A model generated the notes under the pieces. That model was not told the origin of the DNA, did not search any database, and was given only the letters and a program-made list of their open reading frames with translations. The position numbers and the translations under genes were made by a program. From Flavivirga amylovorans (GTDB lineage: Bacteria; Bacteroidota; Bacteroidia; Flavobacteriales; Flavobacteriaceae): a stretch of 64,000 nucleotides of DNA. Location of the stretch: positions 930,001 through 994,000 of the forward strand of contig NZ_JAUOEM010000001.1 of the NCBI RefSeq assembly GCF_030540875.1, read 5' to 3'. Of this stretch, positions 39,882 through 64,000 are shown one piece after another. Positions within the stretch are counted from its first letter, which is position 1. Every line of letters starts with the position of its first letter.

Positions 39882-40425
39882 AAGTAGTAAGAATTTTAGT
39901 TTGGGACTAAATATTTGAGGTAAACATACTACAAAATTCTGTGAAATGCAAAAAATACCGACGAATTACATGTGTTAAGGATTACAAATTTTGCTTTTAA
40001 TTTATCTAAGTTGTTGTTTATTAATGTTTTAGGCGTTCATTGTTTTTTGTAATATTTATATTATAGATAGTAGTATTTGATGGTCTTTTTTAAGTATTTT
40101 TTTAGAATTTATTGTCTAATTTTCATAAAATGAATGTTTTATGCATTAGGGTAATTGTAGGATTTTTAGTTGTTTTGAAATCTGTTATTTGGTGTTTTAT
40201 CGATTTATTTGATGATTTGCTTCATCTTAGTTTAACAATGTGAACACGTCTGTATGGTTTTATTTTTTAACACTATATTTTAATATGTTGAAAATCCGTC
40301 ATTTATAATATGAAAATAACCCATTTATATTAAAAAAGTAAGATAAGGTTTATAATTAATTGTTGTAAATTCGTCTTTGCATCGAAAAAAACATTAACTT
40401 GTTTGAACTAACCAATTTTTTAAAC
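39882..40425. other. Divergent intergenic region between paralogue B and sulfatase 1
   Basis: About 540 bases. The left end carries the conserved leader block (39895-39917, 22 of 23 bases as at 34458-34480) and a 44-base block at 39931-39974 similar to 53212-53256. The centre is very T-rich and shows no gene. The right end should hold the sulfatase promoter; no exact TAnnTTTG box is present there. Confidence 0.6.
39931..39974 (-). promoter_or_regulatory. Conserved upstream block of paralogue B
   Basis: acaaaattctgtgaaatgca and the following aaaaataccgacgaattaca line up with the DNA at 53212-53256 upstream of paralogue C with about 30 of 43 identical bases and at most one gap. The conserved part ends in a row of A followed by tacg/taccg. 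Confidence 0.5.
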
Positions 40426-47800: not shown

Positions 47801-48050
47801 TCAAGAATTACTGACTGGTTTTAATACTGTATTTCCAAATCCGTTTGGAGATCAATTACAAATTAATATTATAGAAACTACCAATCATGTGAAGATCACA
47901 TTATTCGATATTTTTGGAAAGATAATTTTAATTCAAACCCAAACGAGGCAATCATTTAGTATCCCGTTAGAAAACCTAGATAAGGGGATTTATTTATTGC
48001 AAATAGAATCGAATGGTAAATTAACTACCAAAAAGGTTATAAAAAAATAA
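44802..48050 (+). CDS. Secreted arylsulfatase fused to two LamG domains (sulfatase 2)
   Basis: A 1082-residue paralogue of the sulfatase upstream, collinear with it through the first 990 residues. Signal peptide (1-21), sulfatase domain with Asp32-Asp33, Cys78 in CAPTR, HLGKYHVGE, FSNYAIHGPF, YFISDNGGA. Two LamG domains (about 542-763 and 769-996), then directly the T9SS type A tail (VFPNPFGDQLQINI...KGIYLLQIESNGKLTTKKVIKK). It lacks the Ig-like and jelly-roll domains of its sister. Both carry cysteine, not serine, at the formylglycine site and so depend on an FGE/anaerobic maturase encoded elsewhere. Confidence 0.94.
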   Translation: MKSIKTYLLLLFFIVVNKAYPQSPNVIVIIADDMGWSQVSTGLTNLNNPSDFYETPNLATLASEGIAFPYGYVNGSNCAPTRAALLSGQYASRPTNNIFAVDNLNRGGNSTLLVGPDNGLPSGVDELPKEAITLAETMKTAGYATVHLGKYHVGENEATNFSDNAATDQGFDVNYGGGTKGNPGNYFASNSGAPYTFGSSIGPELDSYADPYTAAESLMLAGDNSLTGTAKHVTDAMADAAMDFIDTNINSPFFMHFSNYAIHGPFNPSDARPDLRAKYGAKAISNPSSMGHDRKPGQAALAEGMDQTIGRLINYLKTTADPRNPGNMLSENTLVYFISDNGGAIHSDDAGPLKGMKGEWYEGGIRSVSIVWSEASWLVNKGTINTTPIVGFDIYPTFVEAAGGTLPGSYDIDGMSHWQMLTNGTALNRDALYWHYPGYLIDSNRDARPVSIIRKGDYKLIYNYETESYELYDLINDISETTNLLAGSPDSATLIIGNDMSTDLRNHLINISAPLPTYRSNGQTVSLPYIISTTGGGVNSTDGCQAVSGYEAYWDFDSVSDANDASGNGHDPNPVNGTLTYDAVDFKEGDQSVVFDGTVDINYSSATFISQITTARTVSAWIKPTGVSGVQEIFDEGGNTVGIAMRLNGSNLESIVRQSSVVTDALSAGFPNDGDWHHVALVYDGGNTSHKLYLDGLEVAASNLAPSSIGTHNITGGGIGGVIGSWDSFAVSADSYFTGKIDAFSVYNTALSASGIKDAACLAIVNSMAGCQPANGYEAFWDFDLASNANDASGNNHNPTVALSGAITYDDVDFKEGDQSVIFNGTEAIQYATNSTSPDSFLNIITNSRSIMAWIKPSSLTGIQNIFDEGGQNRGIAIRLNNSNLEAIVRETSSVADQISAPFPNDGDWHHIAFIYSEINTLQKLYIDGVEVATSSSAPASITSHYSYGGIGGKLSGNDSFQNASDAFFTGKMDAFVVYNDVVLTPAQISDSVCLGTLSTQELLTGFNTVFPNPFGDQLQINIIETTNHVKITLFDIFGKIILIQTQTRQSFSIPLENLDKGIYLLQIESNGKLTTKKVIKK

Positions 48051-51100: not shown

Positions 51101-53159
51101 CCCCAGATTCATCTACATCCAATATGCCATCATTGTCACTATCAAGATCTAAATAATCAGGGATAAGATCACCATCTGTATCTATAATGGTTATTCCTTC
51201 AAGACTATCATGCATCCCATTGTTATTAACATCTAACCAGGTTGTAGCATTGGTTAAATTACCTCTACCTTCACTTAGACTTGCGGCAGTAGGATTTGCT
51301 TCAACTACATCGGGAATTCCATCATCATCACTGTCTAAATCAAATACATTAGCCACCAGGTCATCGTCTATATCACAAAGTGTTTGCCTTATTTCTATAT
51401 CGTCTATTGCCAAATCATTTCCTAGGCCTCCAGCAGCATTATTAACAAACTCTACTATAAACGACGTTTCAGGTGTTGTGAATTGCTGTGAAAATTGTTG
51501 CCATACTGAAGTTGTACATGTATTATAAGAAGCATCTGCTGCATGTGGGTAAGTGCCCGTATGATCTCCAGGGGTAAATGTATCGCCGCACCTGGTAATA
51601 TCTCCGGTATCAAAAGTTGCAATTAAAGTGCTTTTGTCTGATGTCCAAAAATTTACTGTTACATTGGGCAATAGTCTATGAGTAAAAAGACTAGCATTTC
51701 CACCATGTTCCCGATCAATAAAGTTTTGATCTGGTTCGTCAATATTTATAACCCAAAAACTATAGTTGATAGGTACATTTGCAAGTGTGCCAGTTATTTC
51801 GGTTTCGTAAAAAACACCTGGAACATTATCTGCGTTAAAAATAGCCATTCTGCCATTAGTATCTCCAGGGGTATGATCTTCAATTGGAGCCCAGGCATAC
51901 CATGCCCAAGCAGCTATTGCGTTGATTGGTCCAACAGTTTCTCCATTTATACCAGTCGTAATTTGACTAGAAACAGTATATTCTCCATCATTTAAGCCTT
52001 CATAGGTATCACATTCGTCAGGTAATGTTGTTGAATTATTTCCATCTTCAATACAATAGGTCGTAGTCGCTGTGTATAAGGTACTAATAGCTGTACTCCT
52101 TGTAGTACCAGTGCCAAAAGTTTCGTTTAAAAATTTATAGTCTGCTTGAGAAGCACCACTTGATAATCTACACGTATTTTCTTCATCAGAATCAGGTATA
52201 CCATCATTGTCATCATCAATGTCTACATCATCGTAAACACCATCACCATCACTATCAAAGAATACCTTATCTGCATCAGCAGTTAAATTTATCTGATAAG
52301 AAGCTTCATTGGCATCATCAGATGCAATATTTAAGACATCGGTTTGAATACCTACAGTCGGTGTTGTAAATGATACAACAATGTCTGCCGTTCCTCCAGC
52401 TGCAATTACTGTTCCTGATATTGGTGCGCTATCTATAGTGAAATCTGAAGGTCCAGTTAACGATATAGCTCCAAGTGTTAAACCCCCAGTTCCAGTATTG
52501 TTGATAACAAATGTTTTTGTAACTGTTTCCGATACTATTTGTGCGGTACCATAATCTGTATTATTTGATACCATTGGTGTATTTGTACCATCACCTATAA
52601 TTGAAACACCAAGACCTGTAACATCTATTTCGGGAGTAGAAGGAACTATAATATTTACGATATAATCTTCAACTTCTCCATAATTAAAAGATTCACAAGA
52701 AGTAGGCATGTCATTATATTTCATAGAAACTCTCATTCTAGTATTGCCTGCCATTGCAGTAGCAGGGATTGTAAAAGATCCAGATACACTAGAGGCTGTA
52801 GTAGCTGCTAAAGACCATACTTGTTCTCCTGTATCGTTAAAGTCATCATCTTGATTATAATCTATCCAAACAGAATAGCCTTCAGAATATACAGTACCCG
52901 TCCAGGTAGGAGTAATGGTTATAGTATAACCAGTACTTGTATTTAAATTAGTTGATGGTACAGCTGTAAAATCTGTATATCCAGTTCCAGGCACAGCTGC
53001 AGAGTTGTTGTCTATTGTATTCAATTGTACTCTTCCAATGTATTCATCTGCAGTACTACTTCCGCTAGATGAACAATATTGAGAGAAAGAGAGATTTGTT
53101 GATAATAGCAAGAGAGAGAATATAACAAGCTTACTTTTTGAAAAAGTAACATTTTTCAT
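48108..53159 (-). CDS. Giant secreted T9SS protein with GEVED, TSP3 and LamG domains (paralogue C)
   Basis: A 1683-residue secreted protein. Signal peptide (1-26); GEVED domain (about 95-170, YSVWIDYNQDDDFNDTGEQV, FNYGEVEDYIVNI); a HYDIN-like/choice-of-anchor D domain (about 175-295, FVINNTGTGGLTLGAISLTG); thrombospondin type 3 calcium repeats (DSDGDGVYDDVDIDDDNDGI at about 305 and more at about 595-800); between them a jelly-roll region with an internal FIVEFVNNAAGGLGNDLAID; LamG (about 835-985); then the C-terminal module shared with paralogues A and B (LEGESQLIQTENS, YNYWSSPVG, GNPYPSAIDADEF, PVGQGFFVSA, HRQLLLSAD) and a type A tail ending TSKKVLIK. Non-enzymatic surface or binding role is inferred. 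Confidence 0.92.
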   Translation of the reverse strand: MKNVTFSKSKLVIFSLLLLSTNLSFSQYCSSSGSSTADEYIGRVQLNTIDNNSAAVPGTGYTDFTAVPSTNLNTSTGYTITITPTWTGTVYSEGYSVWIDYNQDDDFNDTGEQVWSLAATTASSVSGSFTIPATAMAGNTRMRVSMKYNDMPTSCESFNYGEVEDYIVNIIVPSTPEIDVTGLGVSIIGDGTNTPMVSNNTDYGTAQIVSETVTKTFVINNTGTGGLTLGAISLTGPSDFTIDSAPISGTVIAAGGTADIVVSFTTPTVGIQTDVLNIASDDANEASYQINLTADADKVFFDSDGDGVYDDVDIDDDNDGIPDSDEENTCRLSSGASQADYKFLNETFGTGTTRSTAISTLYTATTTYCIEDGNNSTTLPDECDTYEGLNDGEYTVSSQITTGINGETVGPINAIAAWAWYAWAPIEDHTPGDTNGRMAIFNADNVPGVFYETEITGTLANVPINYSFWVINIDEPDQNFIDREHGGNASLFTHRLLPNVTVNFWTSDKSTLIATFDTGDITRCGDTFTPGDHTGTYPHAADASYNTCTTSVWQQFSQQFTTPETSFIVEFVNNAAGGLGNDLAIDDIEIRQTLCDIDDDLVANVFDLDSDDDGIPDVVEANPTAASLSEGRGNLTNATTWLDVNNNGMHDSLEGITIIDTDGDLIPDYLDLDSDNDGILDVDESGAINTNDTTFQNGDGDISGNGIGNGPDTETFREKDSDGDGILEGFGDGILDIYDFHEGNTTFANSYGNNSQGTGPLYTLDSDSDGIPDYRDPYNNSTAIYDIDTIEIYAGLPNTAGVLDSTIDADGDGIMASRDGDDTVIGTPRNLDNSYSLYFDGRNDYVEDNNLIATGDATLMAFVKTDGTNTNSNNQIVAGQDDLYIIVNDATNIVSAVVEGTTISSTTALTDGIWAHITVTTTLASGGETILYINGVEEARDNSGGITDASNFNIGRSSINNNFFKGEIDEVRIFNEALTANEVKRMVYQELDEANNFNSGKIIPTDISATIGSNLVKYYKMDGYQDDILDDKKTVALDVTGAKMYNFKDIYFQRAPLPYETVSDGDWTNPTNWLNGSEWDIMSKQNNPDGASIVHIQNNINLNGTYDTQGMVGLIVDSSQEFTIEADKGLYNSWYLELNGLLDLEGESQLIQTENSNLEPTSSGSLERDQQGSSNTYTYNYWSSPVGQINNTTNNNDYTLIDVINNVGFLASGYNGTATPSVQNADYWIWKYANNTTDDYSQWQHVRSTGTMLTGEGFTMKGPGTPTPNQNYEFLGKPNNGDVTLTITAGNDYLIGNPYPSAIDADEFIKDNISSSESQGRNINGNIINGALYFWDHFSNNTHGLSQYEGGYAIYTLAGAVPAISNDSRINATGATGSKIPEQYIPVGQGFFVSAILDSGIPLPADDGLTLAIDGGDILFKNSQRVFRTEASGPSTFLKSSNTKNKSAVAKTNTNLKQKIRLMLDSPNGYHRQLLLSADANATKEFDLGYEAILIESNKEDMYWNLKNSKLIIQAINSFDENLRLPLGIKIDKEGLTEIKIDALENVDDRINIFIHDIELDIYHNLKQNNFKTYLTAGVHENRFEITFVNTSELESLETEDLTNKTIQAYFSNEKRSIIIHNPTLKYINSVEISNFLGQSLLKFEPKTNNDYMEYTSNQFKTGSYILQIETEDGKTSKKVLIK

Positions 53160-53571
53160 GAGAGGTTAATTTTTAGCTTTGGGGGCTGTAATTTTGGTAA
53201 TCAAATGTATATCAAAACTCTATGAAACGCAAAAAAATACGATAAAATGCATTTTTAATGTAAGTTATTGGTTTTCAGGTGCTTATTGGTGTTTTTTTTG
53301 TAATAGAAACACTAATTGTAAGTGTATATTTATGTGCTTGTAGGTTTATTATTATTGAATAATGTCAGGTAAACCTATTTATGGAACTTTAACCTATAAT
53401 TTATCGTTAGATAAGCTATTTGTTATAAGATCCTTGACATTGAGTCTAAAAGAATAGAAGCATAAAAAATGTTTATTAATTAAGGATAAACTTTTTATCA
53501 TAATTAAAATTTGCATAAATAGTATATTATTATAATATTTGTTCAAAATTTATTTAAATTAATTTTATACC
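53160..53571. other. Divergent intergenic region between paralogue C and the GH31 gene
   Basis: About 410 bases. The left side holds the block at 53212-53256 shared with the regions before paralogues A and B. The right side is AT-rich; TTTG at about 53510 and ataatatttg at about 53535 could be part of the GH31 promoter but do not match the consensus exactly. No gene is seen. Confidence 0.5.
53212..53256 (-). promoter_or_regulatory. Conserved upstream block of paralogue C
   Basis: tcaaaactctatgaaacgca, then an A run and tacgataaaatgcattttt. The second half matches 34561-34586 and the whole matches 39931-39974, each in front of a giant T9SS gene in the same orientation. Confidence 0.55.
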
Positions 53572-56500
53572 ATGAATTTATTTAGCAAAAAAACTATAGC
53601 TCTATTGTTTTTTATAGGATTTACTTTTCAGTCTTACACTCAGAATAGGTTACTAAAAGTAATGTCTTACGAAAGAAAGGATAATTCCGTATTATTTCAT
53701 TGTGAAGATAATGAGTCTGTAAAATTAAGTATAGTAACTGACGATATTATTCGTGTTCAGGTATCTTCAAAAGGGAAATTTAATGAATCGACAATGATAA
53801 AATATGGGTTTGTTAAGGATGATTTTTCTACGGTAGATTTTCAAGTGAAGGAAGGTAAAGATGATTACCAAATACTAACTTCTTCGGTTACCGTTTTAGT
53901 ATCGAAAGCTAACTTTGGACTAAAAGTATTAGATAAAAAAGGAAATCTTATAGTTAGAAATAACGAAAAATCAGGTATACAGTATGGAGAAGAAAATGTC
54001 TTAAATTTTGATATGCCATCCGATGAGCATTTTTTCGGATTTGGCTTTATGCGTGAAACGTTAGATGCTCGCGGAAAAAAACTAACTTTTAAAAGGGCTT
54101 ATAGATGGAATGGGGCTACAGTGCCATTTTTTTTAAGTACCCGAGGGTATGCTTTTTATTCTAATAGTGTATTTAATCATGACTTCGATTTTACAAATAA
54201 AACTAATGGAGAAGCAGCAGATTATTATAGTATTACCACTAAAGGCGGTAGTATTGATTTTTACCTAATCTATGGGCCGTCTTTTCCTCAGATTTTAGAT
54301 AAGTATACAAATCTTACTGGTAAAACTATGATGGTGCCTCGTTGGGCTTTTGGATTACAATACCGTCTTAGGTACCATGGAACACAAGAGGATTTGCTTG
54401 GAGTCGCTAAAGGGTTTAGAGAAAAAGAAATTCCATGTGATATAATGGCTTTAGAACCAGGGTGGGAAGAGGTGTCTTATGCTATGGATTGGAAATGGAG
54501 TCCTACGCGTTTCCCTACACCTAAGAAAATGATTGATGAGTTGAGCAGTATGGGATATAAAATGGATTTATGGGAGTCTGGTATTGCGCCTTATGTAAAC
54601 ATGACCGATCCAAAAGTAAGAAAGAAATGGTATGCGAAGCGAAAGCATATCGTTGATATGGGGGTACGTATGTTTAAGCAAGATGATCCATACCCCAGAA
54701 GTATTGTGAGTACGCAATTGCATGATCCTGAATTTACTAGATCTGAATTTAAGGATAAGTTGATGACTCCTGAAGAACTTAATAATGTATCTAATTCATT
54801 GTATACACAAACGCTGTTTAAAGAATTCAGAAAACAAACAAAAGAAAGAGCTATTGTAATGTTTCATGCATATAATGCCTCAGTGGCTTCGCATAGATGG
54901 CCGTTTCAATGGGCTGGAGATTTTCAGGCAGCAAATGGTCTTATAAATGCTAGTCTCTCTGGTCATGCAATGGTTAGTTACGATATTCGTAATCCACATC
55001 CAGCTGGTTGGCATCAAGGGTTTTTTACACCTTTTACTGTTGTTGATAGTTGGGCGTATTATAGAGAACCATGGTTGTATTCTGAAGCTATGGAGGAAAG
55101 CCATCGCTTATATGCCTGCTTACGTTCTAGGTTAGTGCCCTATTTCTATTCGTCTCTTTGGCAGTCGCATACTACGGCATTACCAATCGAGCGCCCTATG
55201 GTTCTTAATTATTCAGATGATCCAAATACCTATCAAATGAAATCTCAGTTTATGGTAGGGGATTGGTTTTTAGTTGGATTATCAGATGCGGATGATGCTC
55301 CTGCAAATGAAAAGGTTGATTTTTGGACTGGTGTTCAAAAAGGTAATGACGGAAAGGTATACCTTCCAAAAGGAAGATGGGTTGATTATTGGAATAGCAA
55401 TGTCATAGATATTGAAAAAGCACAATGGGTAGATGCAAGTTGGCCAGAATATATGGGAGGTTCTTTATATGTTAAAGGCGGCGCTATTATTCCAATGGGG
55501 CAAGTGAAAAATTATATAGGAGAGACCAAAGATGAAATAGTTGTTTGGGACATATACCCGCATAATTCGTCATCTTATCAATTATATGAAGATGATGGTA
55601 TTTCATATGATTATGAAAAAAGTAAATATGCGCTTACTGATATTGAATGTCATGAAAATGATAGTCAGGTAAAAATTAATATTTCTAAAAGAAAAGGGTT
55701 CTATAAGGGAATGCCTGAAAAGAGAAGTTTCTTGTTGAAAATACACACCCTATCAAAACCAAAAACAATTATTGTTGATGGAGAGGAATTAGCATATTTC
55801 GATAATGGAAATGATTTAATTTATAATATGGCTAAAAAAGGGTGGTATTATGATATTAAAGCCAAAAAAGTAATGGTTAAATTAGATACTGGGTGGAAGT
55901 ATAGTTTAAAAAGTAAAGATGCCTTACAATTAGCCACAATCCCTGGTACACCTAAGTATGACATAATTGAATGGAATGCAACCCCAGAGGAAAAAGATAG
56001 AGAAGTCATAATGCAATTTTATGAAAAAGCAATGCCTATATTCTCATCAAATCAAGAAGGGTTGTTTGCCGATGGATTTAGTCAAGCTAAGTGTGAAATT
56101 AAATTTGCAGATACATCAGAATCAATTGGAAAGATAGATGTAGAATTAGAAGGTCCAGTTTTGTTTTCAAATAGAAAAACAAAAAACACTTTTGAAGTTC
56201 AGAAAGAAGAGGTTCGATTTAACTTAATTGCTAGAAATAATTCTGGAATAGCTAAAGTAAAAGTTTCAGGAGAGAACATTGAGACTAGATCTTTTGATTT
56301 CCCGATTTACGGAAAACCTGTTGAGTTAAAAGTAGAAAAAGAAGAATCTCTATGGATGGCAGATAGTCTTTCTACTATTAATGTTGTAGCTAAACTTCTA
56401 GATAAACATGGAAGCAGAGTACTTAATATCTTTACGCCTTTAACGGTTGAGCTGAAAGGAAAAGGATTGTTTGAGAACGGTATGAAAAAAGATACTATAG

Positions 56501-56931
56501 ATTTTGTAGAAGGTAGGGCTGCGTATTCAATTCAATCTACTTTCGATTCAGGAAAAGTTGAAATTAAATCATCATATCCTAACATCCCTCATAAAACAAT
56601 AACAGATAGTTCGGAGAAAGGAACGATGCAAGTGAAAATGAATCCGCCAACAATGCCTGCAAAATGGGTTCTTAATCAAGTGAGTGTATTTGTAGATTTT
56701 AAGATAGGTAATGAAGTGATTCGATCTGCAACAAATGAGGTAACATTAAATGTATACCATAAAAAAGGAAAACTTTTAGATACATATATTCAAAATGCTA
56801 AAAATGGTGGCGCAGTTTTTAAAGATATAAGTTTTTACAAGCGTCCAGCCGAATGTGTATTTGAAATTAAATGCAAAGGGTTTGAAACAGTAAAGCTTAA
56901 TGTATTTGATAAACAGGAACCTAGTTATTAA
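53572..56931 (+). CDS. Secreted glycoside hydrolase family 31 enzyme
   Basis: A 1119-residue exported alpha-glycosidase. Signal peptide (1-24), N-terminal beta-sandwich (about 28-240, ending FFGFGFMRETLDARGK), TIM barrel (about 252-590) and distal beta domains. GH31 marks: PRWAFGLQYRLRYHG, Asp371 in FKQDDPYP as likely nucleophile (KxD as in alpha-xylosidase YicI) and Asp450 in WAGDFQAANGL as likely acid/base. The DFGE that usually surrounds the nucleophile is replaced by DDPYP, so substrate specificity is unusual. The last 330 residues form extra Ig-like domains. First gene of a run reaching to 64 kb; specificity unknown. Confidence 0.9.
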   Translation: MNLFSKKTIALLFFIGFTFQSYTQNRLLKVMSYERKDNSVLFHCEDNESVKLSIVTDDIIRVQVSSKGKFNESTMIKYGFVKDDFSTVDFQVKEGKDDYQILTSSVTVLVSKANFGLKVLDKKGNLIVRNNEKSGIQYGEENVLNFDMPSDEHFFGFGFMRETLDARGKKLTFKRAYRWNGATVPFFLSTRGYAFYSNSVFNHDFDFTNKTNGEAADYYSITTKGGSIDFYLIYGPSFPQILDKYTNLTGKTMMVPRWAFGLQYRLRYHGTQEDLLGVAKGFREKEIPCDIMALEPGWEEVSYAMDWKWSPTRFPTPKKMIDELSSMGYKMDLWESGIAPYVNMTDPKVRKKWYAKRKHIVDMGVRMFKQDDPYPRSIVSTQLHDPEFTRSEFKDKLMTPEELNNVSNSLYTQTLFKEFRKQTKERAIVMFHAYNASVASHRWPFQWAGDFQAANGLINASLSGHAMVSYDIRNPHPAGWHQGFFTPFTVVDSWAYYREPWLYSEAMEESHRLYACLRSRLVPYFYSSLWQSHTTALPIERPMVLNYSDDPNTYQMKSQFMVGDWFLVGLSDADDAPANEKVDFWTGVQKGNDGKVYLPKGRWVDYWNSNVIDIEKAQWVDASWPEYMGGSLYVKGGAIIPMGQVKNYIGETKDEIVVWDIYPHNSSSYQLYEDDGISYDYEKSKYALTDIECHENDSQVKINISKRKGFYKGMPEKRSFLLKIHTLSKPKTIIVDGEELAYFDNGNDLIYNMAKKGWYYDIKAKKVMVKLDTGWKYSLKSKDALQLATIPGTPKYDIIEWNATPEEKDREVIMQFYEKAMPIFSSNQEGLFADGFSQAKCEIKFADTSESIGKIDVELEGPVLFSNRKTKNTFEVQKEEVRFNLIARNNSGIAKVKVSGENIETRSFDFPIYGKPVELKVEKEESLWMADSLSTINVVAKLLDKHGSRVLNIFTPLTVELKGKGLFENGMKKDTIDFVEGRAAYSIQSTFDSGKVEIKSSYPNIPHKTITDSSEKGTMQVKMNPPTMPAKWVLNQVSVFVDFKIGNEVIRSATNEVTLNVYHKKGKLLDTYIQNAKNGGAVFKDISFYKRPAECVFEIKCKGFETVKLNVFDKQEPSY

Positions 56932-56952
56932 AAGTGGAAAAATAATTAACGA

Positions 56953-57723
56953 ATGAAAAAAGCATCAGAGCATAAAGTGCCATTGTATCATAAGGTATAT
57001 GATTATTTGTTGGAGAAAATTAAAAATGAATACATTGCTGGTGATTTTTTGCCAACACAATCAGAAATTGCCATACAGACAGAGACGAGTCTTATTACGG
57101 TAAAAAGAGCTATAAAGGAACTGGAAGCTATAGGCTACCTTGAATCAAAAGCTGGAAAAGGCACTATTGTAAGGAAACCATCTGTTGTAGATAGTCATGT
57201 GGGGGTATCTAGCTGGACAGATTCTATTTCTGGATTGGGAAGTGTGCCTAGCACAGGTTGGATAAAAGTAAAAAAGAGGGTGCCAACCTCTTCTACGGCT
57301 GATAAACTAAAACTTAAGGCACGTGAAAGAACGGTACGTATAAAACGCTTAAGACTTATAGATGATAACCCTATTTGTTTGATGAATAACGAAATACCTT
57401 TGAGTTTGGTGCCTGGTATTCATGCTAAAGTTATAGATAAAGAATCCTTGTATAATTATTTAAAAGATGAATATGGGCTCATAGCCATAAGGGCAGAGGA
57501 AGAGGTGAGAGCAAGGGAAGCGACTGAATATGAAATCGAGATACTTCAATTAAAAACACCTATTGTTTTGGTAGTTAGAAGATTATCTTTTTTGTCTGAT
57601 GATGTGCCTTTCGAACTATCTTCAATTATAGCTCCAGCTGAGTCCTATATTTATAAATCTCAACAAATAAACAGAACATTGGATCCTAAAGATTTAAATA
57701 AACTATTAACGAAGGTTAGTTAA
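56953..57723 (+). CDS. GntR-family repressor with UTRA ligand domain
   Basis: A 256-residue cytoplasmic regulator. Winged-helix DNA-binding domain (about 10-75: PLYHKVYDYLLEKIKNEYIA, LPTQSEIAIQTETSLITVKR) and a UTRA sensor domain (about 90-245: RTVRIKRLRLIDDNPICLMN, SLYNYLKDEYGL, FELSSIIAPAESY). HutC/GntR proteins of this type sense a sugar phosphate or related intermediate and repress the neighbouring catabolic genes. It lies 22 bases after the GH31 gene and 23 before the SIS gene, and is thus likely to control this run. Confidence 0.93.
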   Translation: MKKASEHKVPLYHKVYDYLLEKIKNEYIAGDFLPTQSEIAIQTETSLITVKRAIKELEAIGYLESKAGKGTIVRKPSVVDSHVGVSSWTDSISGLGSVPSTGWIKVKKRVPTSSTADKLKLKARERTVRIKRLRLIDDNPICLMNNEIPLSLVPGIHAKVIDKESLYNYLKDEYGLIAIRAEEEVRAREATEYEIEILQLKTPIVLVVRRLSFLSDDVPFELSSIIAPAESYIYKSQQINRTLDPKDLNKLLTKVS

Positions 57724-57745
57724 CCAACTTATTAAAAATACTTTT

Positions 57746-58555
57746 ATGAACTTAGAATTCCCAGATCAACTGGACAAAATTAAAGAAGGATTAAGAAACC
57801 AAGAACCATTATTGAAAGAAGTAGCAAGTATCTATGCAGATGCTATAGCTTCGGGTGGTATGGTGCATGTTTATGCTAATGGGCATTCAAGACAATCTGT
57901 AGAAGAAACAGTAATTAGAATGGGAGCCTTAACAGGGTTTAACCCAATTTTAACAGATGCGATTATTACATTCAATGACGTTACGGGCCCAAATGGTATT
58001 CGTGTAGATCAATTCTATGAAAAAGTAGAAGGTATAGGGAAAGTGTTGTTAAAAGAAGTACAATTTGGAGCTAAAGATGTATTGGTTGTTGTCACAGCAA
58101 CGGGTACTACAGCAGCAGCAGTAGATATGGCTTTAGAATTTAGCAAACAATATCCAGATTTGAAAATTGTTGGCATAGCATCCAAAGTACAATCTGCAGG
58201 TGCTGCTGTAAAACATAGCTCTGGAAAAAATTTGATTCATGTTATAGAAGAGAACCCTAATGGTTATTTTATTGATAATTCCATGCCTTATGGTGATTTG
58301 TCAGTGAAAATAGAAGGGAAGATGGCAGACTATCATGTTTGTCCTTTATCCACAGTAGGGGCAATTTCAGTAGCACAATGTTTGAATGAATTAACGGTTA
58401 GAGAATTGGATAGTAGAGGGATCAAGCATCACGTATTGCGTAATATGCATATTGCAGATACTACCGATAATTATGATGAATGGTTAGACGATCAAAGAAA
58501 GCGTTATGCCTTAGGAACATACAATCCAAATAGAGTAGAGCCAATAACTGAGTAA
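57746..58555 (+). CDS. SIS-domain sugar-phosphate protein
   Basis: A 269-residue protein of the SIS (sugar isomerase) fold. The phosphosugar loop is VHVYANGHSRQSVEET (about 41-56) and a second loop is VVVTATGTTAAAVDMALEFS (about 112-131). The C-terminal half (STVGAISVAQCLNELTVREL) closes the dimer. SIS_2-type proteins isomerise or bind phosphosugars, or remove side groups as in N-acetylmuramate 6-phosphate etherase; the reaction here cannot be told. It lies inside the operon one base before the SDR gene. Confidence 0.88.
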   Translation: MNLEFPDQLDKIKEGLRNQEPLLKEVASIYADAIASGGMVHVYANGHSRQSVEETVIRMGALTGFNPILTDAIITFNDVTGPNGIRVDQFYEKVEGIGKVLLKEVQFGAKDVLVVVTATGTTAAAVDMALEFSKQYPDLKIVGIASKVQSAGAAVKHSSGKNLIHVIEENPNGYFIDNSMPYGDLSVKIEGKMADYHVCPLSTVGAISVAQCLNELTVRELDSRGIKHHVLRNMHIADTTDNYDEWLDDQRKRYALGTYNPNRVEPITE

Positions 58556-58556
58556 T

Positions 58557-59342
58557 ATGAAAAATAAAGTTTTCATCATCACAGGGGCTTCAGGTATTGC
58601 TGCCGAAACTATTAAAATGGTTTTAGAGCAAGGTGCTAAGGTCTTTTATATAGGTAGAGATGCTGAACGTTGTAAAGTATTTCAAGATGATTTGAAAAAG
58701 GAAGGGTTACATGCTGATTTTATTGCAGGTGATTTAGTAGATCCCGAAACGGCTCCTAAATTAGTTAGTGCCTGTATTGAAAAATACGGACGTATTGATG
58801 GTTTGTACAACGTCGCGGGTATTAGTGGGCGTCGATTTGGAGATGGCCCTATACATGAGTGTACAGAAGAAGGCTGGGAGGTAACCATGACCACAAATGT
58901 GACAACACAATATCGCATGTGTAGAGAGGTCGTAAAGCAAATGTTAAAACAAGAATGCGATGAAGATGGTTTGCGTGGTACGATTCTAAACATGTCCAGT
59001 ATTTTAGGGATTTCACCAGAACCGAAATTCTTTAGTACCATCGGTTATGCTGCTGCTAAAGGTGCCATTATAAGTATGAGTACGTCTATGGCATCAAAAT
59101 ATGCGTTGGACAAAATCAGAGTAAATGTTATTGCCCCTGGTTTGGCATTAACGCGTATGAGTGCAAGAGCATCAAAAAATGATGACATTGTAAATTTCAT
59201 GAAAGTAAAACAACCATTAATCGAAGGTGTTATGGACGCTAAAGACGTTGCAGAATCTTCGGTTTTTCTATTAAGCAATAAAAGTAAATCCATTACAGGA
59301 GAAGTCTTGAAAATTGACGCTGGGTGGAGTATTTCAAGTTAA
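58557..59342 (+). CDS. Short-chain dehydrogenase/reductase
   Basis: A 261-residue Rossmann-fold oxidoreductase. Cofactor motif TGASGIAAE (about 9-17), NVAG at 85-88, catalytic Ser147 or Ser148 with Tyr164 and Lys168 (YAAAK), then the usual IRVNVIAPGLALTRM. The glycine motif lacks the final glycine of TGxxxGxG; alanine stands there. Such enzymes oxidise a hydroxyl of a sugar or sugar acid with NAD(P). Placement between SIS and FAD genes suggests a step in the same pathway. Confidence 0.92.
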   Translation: MKNKVFIITGASGIAAETIKMVLEQGAKVFYIGRDAERCKVFQDDLKKEGLHADFIAGDLVDPETAPKLVSACIEKYGRIDGLYNVAGISGRRFGDGPIHECTEEGWEVTMTTNVTTQYRMCREVVKQMLKQECDEDGLRGTILNMSSILGISPEPKFFSTIGYAAAKGAIISMSTSMASKYALDKIRVNVIAPGLALTRMSARASKNDDIVNFMKVKQPLIEGVMDAKDVAESSVFLLSNKSKSITGEVLKIDAGWSISS

Positions 59343-59349
59343 AAAATAA

Positions 59350-60696
59350 ATGAGTATGCAAACATATAGTAAAACATTAAACGTTGCAGATAGTTATGAT
59401 ATTGTTGTTGTAGGAGCAGGTTCCGCTGGCGCTACAGCAGCTATTGCAGCAGGTAGAACAGGGGCAAAAACACTTCTTTTAGAGCGCTTAGGATTTCTTG
59501 GAGGAACAAGTACTGCGGTATTGGATACGTTTTATGGGTATTATACTCCAGGCGAAAGATCTACCAGAGTCGTTGGAGGTATTGCTGATGATGTTGTAAA
59601 AGGATTAGGAACTTACAACGCATATTTAGAGCGTCCAAATTCTTTTGGAGCGGGTACGGGAGTAACCTATCACCCAGAATATTTAAAAGTCGTTTGGGAG
59701 CAATTGGTTAAAGGTGCTGGTTGTGATATTTTATTAAACGCTTGGGTTCAAGATACCGTTATCGAAGGAACTAAAATCACAGGATTGGTTGTGGCAACGA
59801 AAAGTGGATTACAATTCATTAAATGTAAACAAGTGATTGATGCTTCTGGTGATGCAGATATTTGTCATCAAGCAGGAATCCCATACGAATTAGCAGGTTT
59901 GGTAGATCCGGCACAAACATTAACAACGACTTTTAAAATGGTTAATGTTGATATGGCGAAGCGTAAAACAATTACAAAGCCAGAGATTAATGCATTGATG
60001 GAGAAAGCTGCTGCAACCGGAAACTTTAATTTGCCCCGTAAAGAAGGAAGTGATCATATTACTCCGGTTGACCATATGACAGCTACAATTATGACACGAT
60101 TAACATCGTTCAGTAAAGATAAATATGGAAACGTTATAAACGCTGCAGATCCAAAATTATGGAGTGACGCTGAAATGAAAGGAAGGTTACAAGCGATAGA
60201 ATATATCCGATTTTTAAAAGCATACGTTCCAGGTTATGAGAAATCTGAATTATCAACTTTTGGAGTACAAATCGGTGTTCGTGAAACCCGTCGCGTAGAG
60301 GGTCATTATAGATTAACGGCAGATGATGTTTTAGGAGCTAAAAAATTTGACGATCAAATCGGATTGTGTGGTGCACCCATGGAAGATCATCATGATGGAG
60401 AAGGTGTAAAATGGCAATACATTCCTAATAGTGAAGTGGTCGGGATTCCGTATAGAACTTTAGTACCTCAGGAAAGTAGTAACCTTTTAGTTGCAGGGCG
60501 TTGTTTCTCTGCAAATCACGTGGCACATAGTAGTGTACGATCTATGGCACAATGTATGACCATGGGAGAAGCCGCTGGTGTTGCAGCCTCTATGTCAATT
60601 AAAAATAATTGCGCTCCAATTGATATCGATACAGATGAGTTGAGAGGGATACTGAAAAATCAAGGCGCTATGGTAGATTCACCTTACGATAACTAA
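59350..60696 (+). CDS. FAD-dependent oxidoreductase (FAD_oxidored family)
   Basis: A 448-residue flavoprotein. FAD-binding motif VGAGSAGATAAIAAGRTGAK with Gly22-x-Gly24-xx-Gly27, then GFLGGTSTAVLDTFYGYYTP, a middle VIDASGDADICHQAGIPYEL and a C-terminal NLLVAGRCFSANHVAHSSVR with MGEAAGVAA. This matches the FAD_oxidored family (Pfam PF12831 by memory), whose characterised members are few. No signal peptide, so it works in the cytoplasm. Reaction inferred as oxidation of a sugar-derived hydroxyl. Confidence 0.9.
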   Translation: MSMQTYSKTLNVADSYDIVVVGAGSAGATAAIAAGRTGAKTLLLERLGFLGGTSTAVLDTFYGYYTPGERSTRVVGGIADDVVKGLGTYNAYLERPNSFGAGTGVTYHPEYLKVVWEQLVKGAGCDILLNAWVQDTVIEGTKITGLVVATKSGLQFIKCKQVIDASGDADICHQAGIPYELAGLVDPAQTLTTTFKMVNVDMAKRKTITKPEINALMEKAAATGNFNLPRKEGSDHITPVDHMTATIMTRLTSFSKDKYGNVINAADPKLWSDAEMKGRLQAIEYIRFLKAYVPGYEKSELSTFGVQIGVRETRRVEGHYRLTADDVLGAKKFDDQIGLCGAPMEDHHDGEGVKWQYIPNSEVVGIPYRTLVPQESSNLLVAGRCFSANHVAHSSVRSMAQCMTMGEAAGVAASMSIKNNCAPIDIDTDELRGILKNQGAMVDSPYDN

Positions 60697-60710
60697 AAAG
60701 ACATGATATT

Positions 60711-61688
60711 ATGAACGATTATATCATAGCATGCGATGTCGGGGGAACTCGAATCAAAGCAGGAATCATAGACGCTGATGGAAATTTATCACACTCAGAA
60801 GAGGTCGATTCTCAAGCGCACCTTGGAACTGATGCATTACTCGAAGCGTTAAAAACACTGATCAAAAAACGTTTGCCTGTTTCAATAGGAAAAGGTAATT
60901 GTTTGGGGATAGGTTTAGGGCTTACGGGGCCAGTAGATTCAAATTTAGGCGTTATTTTATTACCTGGTAAGTTTGACGGATTGGAAGGTTTCCCTATTGT
61001 ACCATTACTTAGAGAAGAATTCAAGCTTCCGGTTTTTGCTGAAAATGATGGCCGTTTGGCTGCTTATGCTGCAAAGTATTATGGAAATGCAAAAGATGTA
61101 GATTGGGCTGTAGTAATTACTTTGGGAACAGGTGTAGGCTCAGGAGTTATAATAAATGGTGAAATTCTTGTAGACCCTCATTTTAATTTCGGGATTCAAA
61201 TAGGGCATTTAGTAATGGATGCGTCTAATAATAAGTTTTGTTTAACAGGAAACTATGGTACAGCAGAAACATTATGTTCTGCCACAGCATTAGTAAACCA
61301 AGTACGAACAGCCATCCAAAGGGGGATTCCTTCTTCGCTTTCAGAATTATATTTTCAAGACCCTTTAAAAATAGGATTTAAAGAAATTGCCGAGGCGTGC
61401 AGAGAAGGCGATGAATTGTGTTTGCGTGAATTGGAGATGTGGAAAGAACATTTAACGGTACTTTTAATAAATGCAACACATGCGTACGGACCTCAAAAAA
61501 TCATATTAAGTGGAGGAGCTTCCTTGGCTTCTGATATTTTTCTGGATGATGTGCAAGAACGTGTTAATAAGCGTGTATTCAGGTTTCCGAAAAATGAAGG
61601 CGTACCAATAGAAATATCGATTATTCAAGAATATGCAGGGGTATATGGTGCTGCAGCAATGTTACATGAAAAACTAAAAAAACAATAG
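60711..61688 (+). CDS. ROK-family sugar kinase with altered zinc motif
   Basis: A 325-residue kinase of the ROK type: ATP-binding CDVGGTRIKAGIID (8-21), catalytic Asp113 in AENDGRLAAYA, GTGVGSGVIINGEI at about 140-152, His166 in QIGHLVMD. The cysteine-rich zinc motif of most ROK proteins (CxCGxxGCxE) is missing; CLTGNYGTAETLC stands in its place, keeping the GTAE ending. It should phosphorylate the sugar or sugar acid made by the preceding enzymes, ahead of aldol cleavage. Confidence 0.9.
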   Translation: MNDYIIACDVGGTRIKAGIIDADGNLSHSEEVDSQAHLGTDALLEALKTLIKKRLPVSIGKGNCLGIGLGLTGPVDSNLGVILLPGKFDGLEGFPIVPLLREEFKLPVFAENDGRLAAYAAKYYGNAKDVDWAVVITLGTGVGSGVIINGEILVDPHFNFGIQIGHLVMDASNNKFCLTGNYGTAETLCSATALVNQVRTAIQRGIPSSLSELYFQDPLKIGFKEIAEACREGDELCLRELEMWKEHLTVLLINATHAYGPQKIILSGGASLASDIFLDDVQERVNKRVFRFPKNEGVPIEISIIQEYAGVYGAAAMLHEKLKKQ

Positions 61689-61690
61689 TG

Positions 61691-62374
61691 ATGAAAGAAT
61701 GGATTAAATTGACTTCCACAGAAATAAATGAACTAGACAGAAATATTCCTGTAATCGTTCCTGTAGGTTTGGTGGAAGCTCATGGACCACATTTAGCCGT
61801 AAGTGTAGATATAGATACAGCAGAATATTTTAGTAAAAAAGTAGCAGAAAATACTGGAGCTATACTGGCGCCTTGTATCCCTTATGGTTTTGCAGATGAA
61901 ATGAGAGAATACCCAGGAACTTTAGGATTGACAGTGGAAACGTTTATGGCAACCATTCAAGATTTATGTCATTTATTTTGCAAACAAGGTTTTAAAAAAA
62001 TCATTTTTATTACTGGTCATGGTGCAAATAAAACGGCTTGCGAATTAGCCTTCTTCAAAATATGGGAAAAACATCCAGATTTTAAAGGCATTTGTTGGAA
62101 CTGGTGGAGCGATTGTGGTATCACAGGAATTCATCATGCAGATAAAGGCGAAACTGAAGTTGCTATAGCCGTTGGGACACCATCAAAAATGGATCGTGCC
62201 AAAGACTTTAAAGTAGAAAAACCTTGGTATAAAATCCGTTCGCGTTATGAATTAGATGCCGAATCGGGAGGTATTAATGGATACCCAACAGAAGCCGATA
62301 TTGAAAATGGAAAACAAATACGAGATAAAGCTGTGGTAGAATTGACAAAGAAGGTTCAAAAAGCATTCGATTAA
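61691..62374 (+). CDS. Creatininase-family amidohydrolase
   Basis: A 227-residue metal-dependent hydrolase. Metal ligands are visible as Glu29 and His31 (VEAHGPH), Asp40/Asp42 (SVDIDTA), His110 (ITGHGANK) and Glu154 (KGETEVA). The family opens amide or lactam rings (creatinine, formamides), but members in sugar operons have no established substrate. I use the ATG at 61691; a GTG one codon earlier overlaps the ROK stop. A lactone- or amide-opening step in the pathway is inference. Confidence 0.88.
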   Translation: MKEWIKLTSTEINELDRNIPVIVPVGLVEAHGPHLAVSVDIDTAEYFSKKVAENTGAILAPCIPYGFADEMREYPGTLGLTVETFMATIQDLCHLFCKQGFKKIIFITGHGANKTACELAFFKIWEKHPDFKGICWNWWSDCGITGIHHADKGETEVAIAVGTPSKMDRAKDFKVEKPWYKIRSRYELDAESGGINGYPTEADIENGKQIRDKAVVELTKKVQKAFD

Positions 62375-62380
62375 AAAATT

Positions 62381-63004
62381 ATGAAACATTTTTTCGAACA
62401 TAAAATACTACCTGCTATCACTATTGAAGATGAAACTAAAGCAGTAAAAATTGCTGAAGCTGTTATCGCTGGTGGTCTAAATATCATGGAAGTTCCTTTT
62501 CGAACTGAAGCTGCTGCTAGATGCATTAGAAAGATTGTTGATGCTTTTCCAAACTTACATGTTGGAGCAGGAACTTTATTAACACCAGAACAAGTAGTTT
62601 TAGCTAAGGAAAGTGGTTCAGCATTTGGGTTGGCTCCTGGATTTAATAAAGCAGTAGTACAGCAAGCTATAGATCTCAATTTCCCTTTTATTCCTGGAGT
62701 CATGACGCCTTCAGAGGTAGAATTAGCGTTAGAAATGGAATGTAAAGTGCAAAAGTTGTTTCCGGCTTCTCAAGTAGGAGGCATTAATATGTTAAAAGCT
62801 TTAGCAGGCCCTTACGGGCATACAGGTGTTGCTTTTATTCCTATGGGAGGTGTATCTCTTAAAAATATGGATGAATTTTTAGCCATGCAAAATGTCATTG
62901 CTATAGGCGGCTCTTGGTTGGCTACCAAACAGTTAATTGCAGATGGAGATTATAGTACAATTACAAAAAATATTAGTAAAGCAATAGGGGTTGCAGTGCA
63001 TTAA
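62381..63004 (+). CDS. KDPG/KHG-type class I aldolase
   Basis: A 207-residue aldolase of the Eda family. Glu37 (MEVPFRT) and Arg41, the GAGTLLTPEQV strand, PGVMTPSEV, and Schiff-base Lys125 in QKLFPASQVGG; then PMGGVSLKNMDEFL and the GGSWLA end. Family members cleave 2-keto-3-deoxy-6-phosphogluconate, its galacto form, or related 4-hydroxy-2-oxo acids to pyruvate plus an aldehyde. As the last enzyme of the run before the next secreted gene, it probably supplies the final cleavage of the pathway. Confidence 0.93.
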   Translation: MKHFFEHKILPAITIEDETKAVKIAEAVIAGGLNIMEVPFRTEAAARCIRKIVDAFPNLHVGAGTLLTPEQVVLAKESGSAFGLAPGFNKAVVQQAIDLNFPFIPGVMTPSEVELALEMECKVQKLFPASQVGGINMLKALAGPYGHTGVAFIPMGGVSLKNMDEFLAMQNVIAIGGSWLATKQLIADGDYSTITKNISKAIGVAVH

Positions 63005-63084
63005 GGTATATAGTAGTAGGGGCACCCTGTTATTTAGAATATTTAAGATAAATTATAACGCTTTTTATTATCAATAAAGTTAGA

Positions 63085-64000
63085 ATGAACAGACCAAAAT
63101 TAGCAATTTTATGGATTGTCGTAATATTTGTGCAATATGGCCATGCTCAAAATTCTAAAGTATTAGGTAATGCTAGTTTCCAATTTTCAGACAATACAAT
63201 TACAGTGTCTACAGGTAAAGTTGAACGAAAATGGCGTTGGACAGGAGCTGGATTTTTGACTACCAGTTATAAAAACCTGTTATCAGGAAAAGAGTGGGCT
63301 ACTTTAAAAAAATCAGATGCTAAATATGAGAGCCAGCCAATTAATATAAACAGTCGTAAAACATGGACTCAATCTGATCGAGTTCATAATAGCGATTGGG
63401 ATCTTCCTACGAAGATTGACTCAAATTCCGAGGCTAAACTTCTTTCGTTGAATTGTCTAGAAACAGATGATGAACACTTTACTTCTAATCATTTATTGGT
63501 TACTGCTCATATGGTTTACGATAGTGGTTTAGAACTTAAATACTTGATTCGAGTGTATCCAAACGCCACAGGGATTTGGACTGCTATCGAGGTAAAGGCT
63601 TTAGATTCTTTTTCATCAGATGGTATACCAGAAGACATAAATACCAGAAAGTATTATGGTTCTAGACAGCCAATTAAAATTGCTAGGACTGAATATATAC
63701 CTGTTGATTTTTCTTTGCCCAACCAAAGACGATATTGGGGCCTTTATAACGATCCTGGAAACCGTGTTAATACCAAAGATATGGTAAAGGAAAAGGTCGT
63801 ACAAGGTTGGCCTATTTTTCAAGATGAACAAAATACCTGGGCTAATGGAGTATCTATTGAATCGGATGGAGAAGGCCTGATTTTGGTTAAAGAATCTAAT
63901 AAGACAGTTAATAAATATGGGCATCAAACTGGATCTTTTTTCTGTACACCAATAGGTGTGGAAGTTACAGGATGGGGTTTGAAACCTAGTGAGATTACCT
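63085..64000 (+). CDS. Secreted carbohydrate-active protein, N-terminal part (cut by window edge)
   Basis: An open frame from the ATG at 63085 to the window end, 305 codons so far. Signal peptide MNRPKLAILWIVVIFVQYGH then AQ. The visible part is a beta-sandwich typical of glycosidases before the catalytic barrel: FSDNTITVSTGKVERKWRWT, TGIWTAIEVKA, PVDFSLPNQRRYWGLYNDPG, GLILVKESNKTVNKYG, then FFCTPIGVEVTGWGLKPSEI. The end suggests a GH36/GH-D-like N-terminal domain, but no catalytic residues lie in the window, so the family is a guess. It follows the aldolase gene by 80 bases. Confidence 0.75.
   Translation, partial: MNRPKLAILWIVVIFVQYGHAQNSKVLGNASFQFSDNTITVSTGKVERKWRWTGAGFLTTSYKNLLSGKEWATLKKSDAKYESQPININSRKTWTQSDRVHNSDWDLPTKIDSNSEAKLLSLNCLETDDEHFTSNHLLVTAHMVYDSGLELKYLIRVYPNATGIWTAIEVKALDSFSSDGIPEDINTRKYYGSRQPIKIARTEYIPVDFSLPNQRRYWGLYNDPGNRVNTKDMVKEKVVQGWPIFQDEQNTWANGVSIESDGEGLILVKESNKTVNKYGHQTGSFFCTPIGVEVTGWGLKPSEIT

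Follow-up and report, generated by a model that had tools for sequence, protein, structure and literature searches.

A probable pyruvate-aldolase sugar operon of Flavivirga amylovorans with an enzyme set not found described in openly licensed literature

The enzymes considered here have their closest described counterparts in separate systems. NagS (SCO4393) of Streptomyces is a SIS-fold dehydratase of N-acetylglucosamine-6-phosphate (GlcNAc-6-phosphate), whose H53A, R64A, E94A, and D179A mutants are dead and to which 6-phosphogluconate binds as an inhibitor (PMC12680351); the reference phospho-furanose lactonases hydrolyse xylono- and arabinono-1,4-lactone 5-phosphates (PMC10971088); and the aldolases of 2-keto-3-deoxy-6-phosphogluconate (KDPG) and of the galactonate epimer (KDPGal) differ at a stereochemistry site, T161 in the former and V154 in the latter, together with a β1 motif (PMC4915726). 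By outline, the nearest described route is that for L-glucose and L-galactose in Luteolibacter, which employs other enzymes (PMC12632266). Here, we analyzed a window of 64,000 nucleotides of F. amylovorans DNA (positions 930001-994000 of contig 1, in a 4.86-Mb genome that is 99.99% complete), at the end of which lies an operon that probably encodes a sugar pathway of the pyruvate-aldolase type and for whose enzymes, taken together, we found no description in the openly licensed PMC literature. The set had been thought at the outset to match no described route, and no published account of it was found in the full texts of openly licensed PMC papers.

The eight-gene operon is real: open reading frames at 53572-63004 bear out the eight same-strand genes first proposed, and every family was confirmed by Pfam. 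The operon and the element ahead of it are as follows.

53510..53541, + strand: putative operator/promoter element, 32 bp (genome-wide mismatch search; kept upstream of related cassettes)
53572..56931, + strand: GH31 glycoside hydrolase, 1119 aa, export judged by eye from the N-terminus (Pfam GH31 domains)
56953..57723, + strand: GntR/UTRA regulator (Pfam GntR and UTRA)
57746..58555, + strand: SIS_2 (UPF0309-type) phosphosugar enzyme, candidate dehydratase (Pfam SIS_2; NF002805 145.9 bits, cut-off 135)
58557..59342, + strand: short-chain dehydrogenase/reductase, SDR (Pfam adh_short, adh_short_C2)
59350..60696, + strand: FAD_oxidored flavoprotein (PF12831, 5e-109)
60711..61688, + strand: ROK-family sugar kinase (Pfam ROK; TIGR00744 168.5 bits, under the cut-off of 260)
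61688..62374, + strand: creatininase-superfamily hydrolase, proposed sugar(-phosphate) lactonase (PF02633, 2.5e-44)
62381..63004, + strand: Eda-family aldolase (PF01081, 6e-59; TIGR01182 217 bits, cut-off 156)

The successive intergenic gaps are 21, 22, 1, 7, 14, -1, and 6 bases; the range of 1-23 bases given in the initial annotation thus holds for six junctions, but the ROK and creatininase genes overlap by one base. The creatininase-type gene starts with GTG, and an ATG follows 3 bases further on.

A common core in related loci

Contigs were scanned with an alignment of seven FAD proteins, which yielded 487 relatives, and the best 80 (L024-L103) were taken with up to 10 kb on each side; as all 80 loci were picked by the FAD protein, its presence is itself not countable. 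Other genes were scored by tblastn seeds at E 1e-6 (taken partly from the same loci, with some self-hits), per locus within ≤10 kb on each side and not strictly per operon, and 49 loci with ≥6 kb on both sides of the FAD gene were treated as having full flanks. Among these 49, SIS was present in 44, SDR in 44, a ROK or FGGY kinase in 41 (ROK in 32, FGGY in 12, and both in 3), and a creatininase-type (CRN) or phosphotriesterase-family (PTE) gene in 48. Judged by this co-occurrence, the arrangement exceeds what chance would give, SIS, SDR, and FAD are the common core, and the core genes very probably act in one pathway.

The nearest named FAD proteins are those of an uncultured Flavobacteriaceae bacterium (89% identity), Flavivirga algicola (88%), and Zobellia (84%). 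Many of the 80 loci are metagenome bins, and their record titles carry the labels Bacteroidota, Planctomycetota, Verrucomicrobiota, Pseudomonadota, Acidobacteriota, Chloroflexota, Actinomycetota, and Bacillota, with one further bin labelled Minisyncoccota. All six enzymes are compactly arranged in L072, L104, and L105. For the SIS protein, 21 of the 249 searched members of the family, with the window's own genome counted, gave a match at E 0.001, and in the ten matching loci whose genes were read (L005-L009, L013, L014, and L016-L018), cassette members stand beside SIS in all except L017 and L018. Six of the SIS-found loci (L108-L113) were taken at 18-20 kb; four of them (L108, L110, L111, and L112), from divergent Flavobacteriaceae, contain SDR, ROK, SIS, FAD, and PTE. 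In these four, the SDR-ROK-SIS-FAD-PTE stretch adjoins a Gfo/Idh protein, and L108 also has a GMC oxidoreductase and a TIM-barrel protein, for which L110 and L111 have similar genes to judge by eye, a setting like that of 3-keto-glycoside systems.

Plasmids carry the cassette as well. Matches occurred in five plasmid records, of which four were viewed and the weakest (34% identity) was left out: a Persicobacter plasmid has GntR-SIS-SDR-FAD-ROK-creatininase-eda, a Deinococcus aetherius plasmid has FGGY-SDR-FAD-(PTE)-eda-SIS, and Haliscomenobacter and Spirosoma plasmids have an 'aryldialkylphosphatase' after FAD. The set had initially been tied to GH31 and to Bacteroidota, a link that did not survive: a close GH31 occurs in only 7 of the 80 loci, the loci are labelled as at least eight phyla, and a same-genus locus, L121, has different surroundings. 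In many actinobacterial cassettes, there are RbsA-type ABC transporters.

The 32-bp element finishes 30 bases ahead of the GH31 start codon and, at ≤3 mismatches, is a single site in the 4.86-Mb genome, with 0 matches for a reversed control; at ≤3 mismatches, a 24-base stretch of it was found a single time in the window and in 0 of 100 shuffles. In L024-L028 and L046, which come from Flavobacteriaceae and Agaribacillus, and in the Persicobacter locus L104, from a different order, the cassette is preceded by a similar element with unrelated flanks, which makes eight related loci with L121 counted. The element stands directly before GntR in three loci (L024, L026, and L104) and before GH31 in two (L028 and L046); the Zobellia loci, L025 and L027, have it ahead of a sigma-factor-like gene that precedes GntR. 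In L121, 32 of 32 element bases are identical and lie directly before GntR; this locus keeps GntR-SIS-SDR-FAD-ROK-CRN-EDA in other surroundings, with a GH31-like protein ∼7 kb away that is 26% identical, so that the cassette travels as one block. In its sequence, the element resembles an operator with a palindrome, placed over a promoter of the Bacteroidota type with its TTTG motifs, and we infer that the operon's own GntR protein binds it. That the genes form one unit is thereby supported.

Interchangeable hydrolases and a candidate dehydratase

Two slots of the cassette are, to judge from gene content, each filled by either of two families, the kinase slot by ROK or FGGY and the hydrolase slot by CRN or PTE. 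Among the 49 full-flank loci, 14 have CRN only, 33 have PTE only, one (L043, where the CRN match is 28% identical) has both, and one (L069) has neither (Fisher p 3.2e-10). Across all 80 loci, the corresponding counts are 17, 58, 1, and 4, the last comprising L069 together with L038, L044, and L081, in which FAD lies ≤∼1.7 kb from a record end. Since the loci are related and not independent, repeated changes on a tree outweigh the p value: on a quick tree of 88 FAD proteins, in which 22 of 85 inner branches are poorly supported, the hydrolase label has to switch at least three times and the ROK/FGGY label of the kinase at least five times. For this tree, one of the 80 loci was dropped because its FAD sequence is a short fragment, L104-L108 and L110-L112 were brought in, L109 and L113 were left out as lacking FAD, L043 was labelled PTE by hand in view of its CRN identity, and rows without a single label were not counted.

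Three PTE proteins (L050, L102, and L083) were tested against NCBIfam, and the phospho-furanose lactonase model NF045706 (cut-off 630) gave them 220.1, 163.5, and 106.9 bits, respectively, all under the cut-off; for the L050 protein, it is the best model. Because CRN is interchangeable with a PTE family that matches this model, we read it as a sugar(-phosphate) lactonase, which most simply would act on the same intermediate as PTE.

The window protein is the sole creatininase-family protein found in its genome. Of 395 genomes sampled from the phylum, two contain CRN at E 1e-50, namely that of the window and one more, both times within the cassette; G248, which has a cassette with a creatininase-type gene, was evidently not in that sample. 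By alignment, creatininase E34, H36, D45, and H120 correspond to E30, H32, D41, and H111 of the window protein, and E122 corresponds to A113. In all 19 CRN sequences (the window and 18 loci), E30, H32, D41, H111, H150, and E155 are present, and the E122 position holds A or G, so that the full set of E34, H36, D45, H120, and E122, which we take to be the ligand set of creatininase proper, does not occur. Consistent with this, CRN scored 84.4 bits against TIGR04448 (creatininase; cut-off 235), 79.4 bits against TIGR03964 (MftE; cut-off 172), and 48.2 bits against NF041098 (IolN; cut-off 245), the last with residues 8-114 of 228 aligned.

The SIS protein has two solved relatives, 3cvj and NagS itself (9eol; phmmer E 5.5e-14). 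In the alignment to 9eol, the four residues whose alanine mutants are dead in NagS, namely H53, R64, E94, and D179, are kept as H47, R58, E92, and D184; they are present, respectively, in 62, 62, 61, and 62 of 62 SIS proteins of ≥240 aa (the window and 61 of the 63 loci with SIS). This protein is accordingly a candidate for the missing dehydratase. The initial annotation had seen no dehydratase, but it probably missed the SIS protein, as the relative NagS is a sugar-phosphate dehydratase. A search of the genome did not find Edd: the sole ILVD_EDD protein scores above the cut-off for IlvD (738 bits; cut-off 618) and below that for edd (249 bits; cut-off 708). A second Eda-type gene, on contig 13, adjoins a gene similar to 2-keto-3-deoxygluconate (KDG) kinase.

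For the SDR, no NCBIfam cut-off was reached among the best 25 of 219 matches. The predicted structure of the FAD protein is good (pLDDT 92.5), and its TM-scores against solved structures are ≤0.53 among the 50 matches listed, which is a general flavoprotein level and leaves the protein without an informative solved relative. Pyruvate plus glyceraldehyde amounts to C6H10O6 and a hexose to C6H12O6, so that one net two-electron oxidation is required; two oxidoreductases therefore mean either a more reduced substrate or an oxidise-then-reduce pair. Should each of the six enzymes act a single time, the water lost at the SIS step would be balanced by that gained at the hydrolase step, and the substrate would be at the hexitol level (C6H14O6); alternatively, an oxidise-then-reduce pair may change a stereocentre.

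The proposed route and its alternatives

We tentatively propose a six-enzyme intracellular route that converts one monosaccharide to pyruvate and a triose phosphate. In this scheme, GH31 would free the monosaccharide outside the cell and the neighbouring MFS carrier would import it; the ROK kinase would phosphorylate a terminal hydroxyl, and the GntR/UTRA protein would sense the phosphosugar. SIS would then dehydrate the sugar phosphate, in its open-chain form, across C2-C3, by analogy with the action of NagS on GlcNAc-6-phosphate, to give a 3-deoxy-2-keto sugar phosphate, whose ring form the SDR would oxidise at C1 to a lactone; the creatininase-type protein would hydrolyse the lactone, and Eda would cleave the resulting 2-keto-3-deoxy-6-phosphoaldonate. 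The place of the FAD protein would be bounded by the redox count, as acting on a reduced substrate or in an oxidise-reduce pair. The route first suggested, namely opening by the creatininase, phosphorylation by ROK, and aldol cleavage, is partly supported: each step is plausible, and the interchange with PTE favours a lactonase role for the creatininase. With greater reserve, we consider that at least eight phyla may hold a route similar to the Entner-Doudoroff pathway, in which SIS-fold dehydration of the phosphorylated sugar precedes C1 oxidation and a creatininase-fold protein is the lactonase, such that Edd and the lactonase would be replaced by non-homologous enzymes; we regard this generalization as less likely than not.

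Several observations weigh against the proposed route. A recognisable kinase is absent from 8 of the 49 full-flank loci; L069, which has neither hydrolase, is not near a record end; and L109 (SDR-ROK-SIS) and L113 (SDR-SIS), also from divergent Flavobacteriaceae, have no FAD or PTE within 18-20 kb. A 'phosphotriesterase-related protein' model, which states no reaction, outscores the lactonase model for the PTE proteins of L102 (217.1 bits) and L083 (147.7 bits). The substrate-contacting S91 and N228 of NagS are replaced in the window by Q89 and H235; across the SIS set, no S occurs at the first position and N is not among the commonest letters at the second. Moreover, distant NagS homologues (26-36% identity) are inactive or nearly so on GlcNAc-6-phosphate (PMC12680351). 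The four kept residues are also present in the non-cassette SIS proteins of L017 and L018 and thus mark the wider SIS family, not the pathway. As the essential residues are kept, the contact residues are changed, and the distant homologues are inactive, the SIS protein may retain the chemistry of NagS with another substrate.

The aldolase raises further points of this kind. The positions of E45 and K133 of Escherichia coli Eda do not vary across 13 aligned aldolases, among which are E. coli Eda itself and DgoA, but an Eda- or DeoC-type gene lies nearby in only 18 of the 49 full-flank loci (EDA in 16, DeoC in 5, and both in 3), and 31 have neither, so that pyruvate as an end product is secure only for loci like the window's. 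At the E. coli T161 position, the window has M, along with the KDPG-like P in β1, L034 and L105 have V, and L083 and L090 have T; since this stereochemistry residue varies, the sugar may differ between hosts.

The nearest solved relative of GH31 is 6jr6 (256 bits), which we take to be a dextranase of Flavobacterium johnsoniae. Where 6jr6 has YQDIGW, in what is presumably the glycone-binding region, the window protein has ALEPGW, and glucose is therefore not assured as the released sugar. Fucosidase families occur near several CRN-type cassettes (by Pfam at the window locus; by eye in L032, L041, and L046). Although the locus next to the operon abounds in fucosidases, L-fucose was rejected as the substrate, being a 6-deoxy sugar and hence without a C6 hydroxyl on which a kinase could act; a fucose isomerase was likewise not found, in a search that did not extend to the oxidative fucose route. 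D-Galactose as the sole reason for the operon was likewise set aside, since a GalT-family protein is present, as was an ordinary Entner-Doudoroff branch, given that Edd was not found in the genome.

Among the alternatives, an aldonate may be formed first, which we regard as rather unlikely: the SDR would produce an aldonolactone, CRN would open it, the FAD protein would oxidise the product to a keto-aldonate, the kinase would act, SIS would isomerise, and a dehydratase would lie elsewhere. This gives the FAD protein an oxidative role, and SIS proteins are often isomerases. Glucose-6-phosphate and phosphoheptose isomerases, for example, are SIS proteins (PMC12680351), and the characterised verrucomicrobial L-glucose/L-galactose route combines two oxidations with one reduction and employs both a dehydratase and a KDPG aldolase (PMC12632266). 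However, Edd was not found in the genome, in which enolase-type and UxuA-type dehydratases were not searched for; the compact cassettes of L072 and L105 contain no recognised dehydratase (L072 by eye); and a hexose that is oxidised twice in net terms would end up beyond the level of pyruvate plus glyceraldehyde phosphate if no reduction took place as well.

In an improbable alternative, SIS would dehydrate an N-acetylhexosamine-6-phosphate, the ring would be oxidised, and the hydrolase would cut the amide or lactone before the aldolase acts. NagS, the characterised SIS relative, does have GlcNAc-6-phosphate as its substrate, and NagA acts on the NagS product (PMC12680351); Erysipelotrichaceae loci have SIS-SDR-FAD-PTE-EDA followed by a NagA-type deacetylase (281 bits; cut-off 225.65), and GH31 includes α-N-acetylgalactosaminidases (7f7r). 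Yet a NagA-type gene was found in 7 of the 80 loci only, at a loose tblastn cut-off, and both the changes at the substrate-touching S91 and N228 positions and the complete or near inactivity of distant NagS homologues on GlcNAc-6-phosphate (PMC12680351) speak against such a substrate for the window SIS.

We hold it to be distinctly improbable that the pathway is not self-contained and that the core serves accompanying 3-keto-glycoside systems in Actinomycetota and divergent Flavobacteriaceae by handling the oxidised sugar. The divergent cassettes with their Gfo/Idh neighbours, and L108 with its GMC oxidoreductase and TIM-barrel protein, would suit this, an actinobacterial Gfo/Idh protein is closest to levoglucosan dehydrogenase (161 bits; cut-off 650), and the formula of 3-keto-glucose equals that of the Eda substrate minus phosphate. 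Near CRN-type cassettes, however, two Gfo/Idh seeds and a TIM seed found nothing apart from weak Gfo/Idh matches in L024 and L026 (24-26% identity), GMC not having been used as a seed, and the donor in the window is a hydrolase (GH31).

IolN cleaves a diketone in the inositol pathway of Thermotoga, and the least probable alternative, in which FAD and SDR would oxidise a cyclitol twice to a 1,3-diketone that CRN would cleave hydrolytically in the same way, has in its favour a 48-bit match of CRN to the IolN model (3-dehydro-scyllo-inosose hydrolase) and, in some loci, accessory Gfo/Idh (IolG 122 bits; cut-off 355) and TIM-barrel (IolO/IolE 35 and 33 bits) proteins that are weakly alike, but that match falls far from the IolN cut-off of 245 and spans less than half of CRN, replacement by the PTE family is easier to reconcile with a lactone than with a carbon-carbon bond, the product would be two electrons more oxidised than the Eda substrate, and GH31 to our knowledge releases a sugar, not a free cyclitol.

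Surroundings and comparison with known systems

A further secreted gene had been noted after the operon, and it is present, starting 80 bases past Eda.

63085..64000, leaving the window and ending at 65235 (L002:3085-5235), + strand: 716-aa protein, export judged by eye from the N-terminus (open reading frame)

This protein has no Pfam or NCBIfam match at E 0.001 and matches the α-galactosidase 4fnr weakly (E 0.27). Homologues occur in 8 of the 80 loci (L024-L028, L031, L035, and L046), with a fragment in L029; the predicted structure of the L024 homologue is poor (pLDDT 52.9), and the family is possibly a new glycosidase family. No transporter had been seen in view, which holds inside the window, but a Sugar_tr/MFS protein lies 1.5 kb beyond its edge, at what would be 65510-66898 (L002:5510-6898). 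Past the edge, Pfam identifies this sugar-porter MFS protein, a DUF5107/TPR protein, a GH95-type N-terminal domain, a PhoD-like protein, two GH29 proteins, and beta-helix, GH88-like, and heparinase II/III-like proteins, while an AraC regulator, sigma/anti-sigma factors, SusC/SusD-like proteins, and a sulfatase were recognised by eye only; the operon thus borders a large polysaccharide locus. An Rfam search of the window returned nothing at the gathering score.

Elsewhere in the window, tandem similar sulfatase-like proteins at 40399-44619 and 44802-48050, with laminin-G-type repeats and a type IX secretion system (T9SS) tail (Pfam on the second only), resemble a duplication by eye. Also by eye, very large, secreted-looking proteins on the minus strand (31218-34442, 34713-39881, and 48108-53159) are alike in their C-terminal parts, and two closely similar ECF-type sigma factors lie close together (6468-6998 and 7670-8200), with a FecR-like protein at 8290. 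The DUF5107/TPR protein (∼1090 aa; L002:8285-11560) is 52% identical to one at L099:12803-16075, which adjoins the creatininase-type gene of that Chloroflexi cassette.

Other recurrent neighbours were seen in the related loci. Erysipelotrichaceae loci (L083:8464-15731; also L079, L080, and L085) have a NagA-type deacetylase and, except for L080, a DeoC-type aldolase; a ManA-like protein is next in L083, and tblastn found neither ROK nor FGGY near these cassettes. A ∼730-aa family (L087:7608-9794, L105:2644-4818, L029:18069-20312, L030:18123-20381, L031:3-2075, and L035:3-2162) is common to Chloroflexi, Deinococcus, and Chitinophaga cassettes, with sub-threshold matches only to GH127/GH76, and is accompanied by DUF4432 in L087 and L105. 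Near several cassettes, a cobalamin-independent methionine-synthase-like protein stands beside a metallo-beta-lactamase (L049:8717-10611, L102:16128-18993, L109:18311-20000, L110:4921-6797, and L112:4352-6222); families were tested for L049 and for the L102 lactamase, which is weakly similar to ascorbate-6-phosphate lactonase, and the rest were assigned by eye.

Current annotation names for these proteins, such as 'FAD-dependent oxidoreductase', 'sugar isomerase domain-containing protein', 'creatininase family protein', and 'aryldialkylphosphatase', are generic or misleading, whereas one pathway with two mutually replacing hydrolase families offers testable functions for FAD_oxidored, UPF0309/SIS, creatininase-family, and PTE-family proteins. 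If SIS is indeed a dehydratase, it would explain how Eda is fed in a genome in which no Edd was found. The substrate is made findable by a single operon, a single operator-like site, and named-strain relatives (Zobellia uliginosa DSM 2061, Chitinophaga polysaccharea 1209, and Flavivirga algicola Y03).

Compared with known systems, NagS is a related SIS protein whose four alanine-dead residues are kept in the window SIS, to which it is only distantly similar and with which it does not share S91 and N228; it is described as limited to Streptomycetaceae, in a toxicity pathway (PMC12680351), whereas the window SIS belongs to a catabolic operon. The phospho-furanose lactonase (MS0025/MAG_6390, NF045706) is related to the PTE proteins of the sister cassettes and is proposed to share its reaction with CRN, but the window protein is from a different family and the three sister PTE proteins score below the equivalog cut-off. 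IolN, creatininase, MftE, and ArfB belong to the same superfamily as CRN, which keeps the core metal-binding positions of creatininase but lacks its E122 and widely misses all four NCBIfam equivalog cut-offs.

The Luteolibacter lguABCDEF cluster for L-glucose and L-galactose, from a Verrucomicrobium, also has two oxidations, a KDPG aldolase, and a 'fructokinase' gene, but its own route uses tagaturonate reduction and an altronate dehydratase, and the words FAD, creatininase, sugar isomerase, and ROK are absent from the main text of the paper (PMC12632266). The Entner-Doudoroff pathway (Zwf, Pgl, Edd, and Eda) ends in the same Eda-family aldolase, and its oxidation, lactonase, and dehydration steps correspond to those proposed here. 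The operon contains no glucose-6-phosphate dehydrogenase or 6-phosphogluconolactonase of the usual families, and no Edd was found in the genome; in their place, the proposed route would use a SIS-fold dehydratase, a creatininase-fold lactonase, an extra flavoprotein, and a dedicated kinase.

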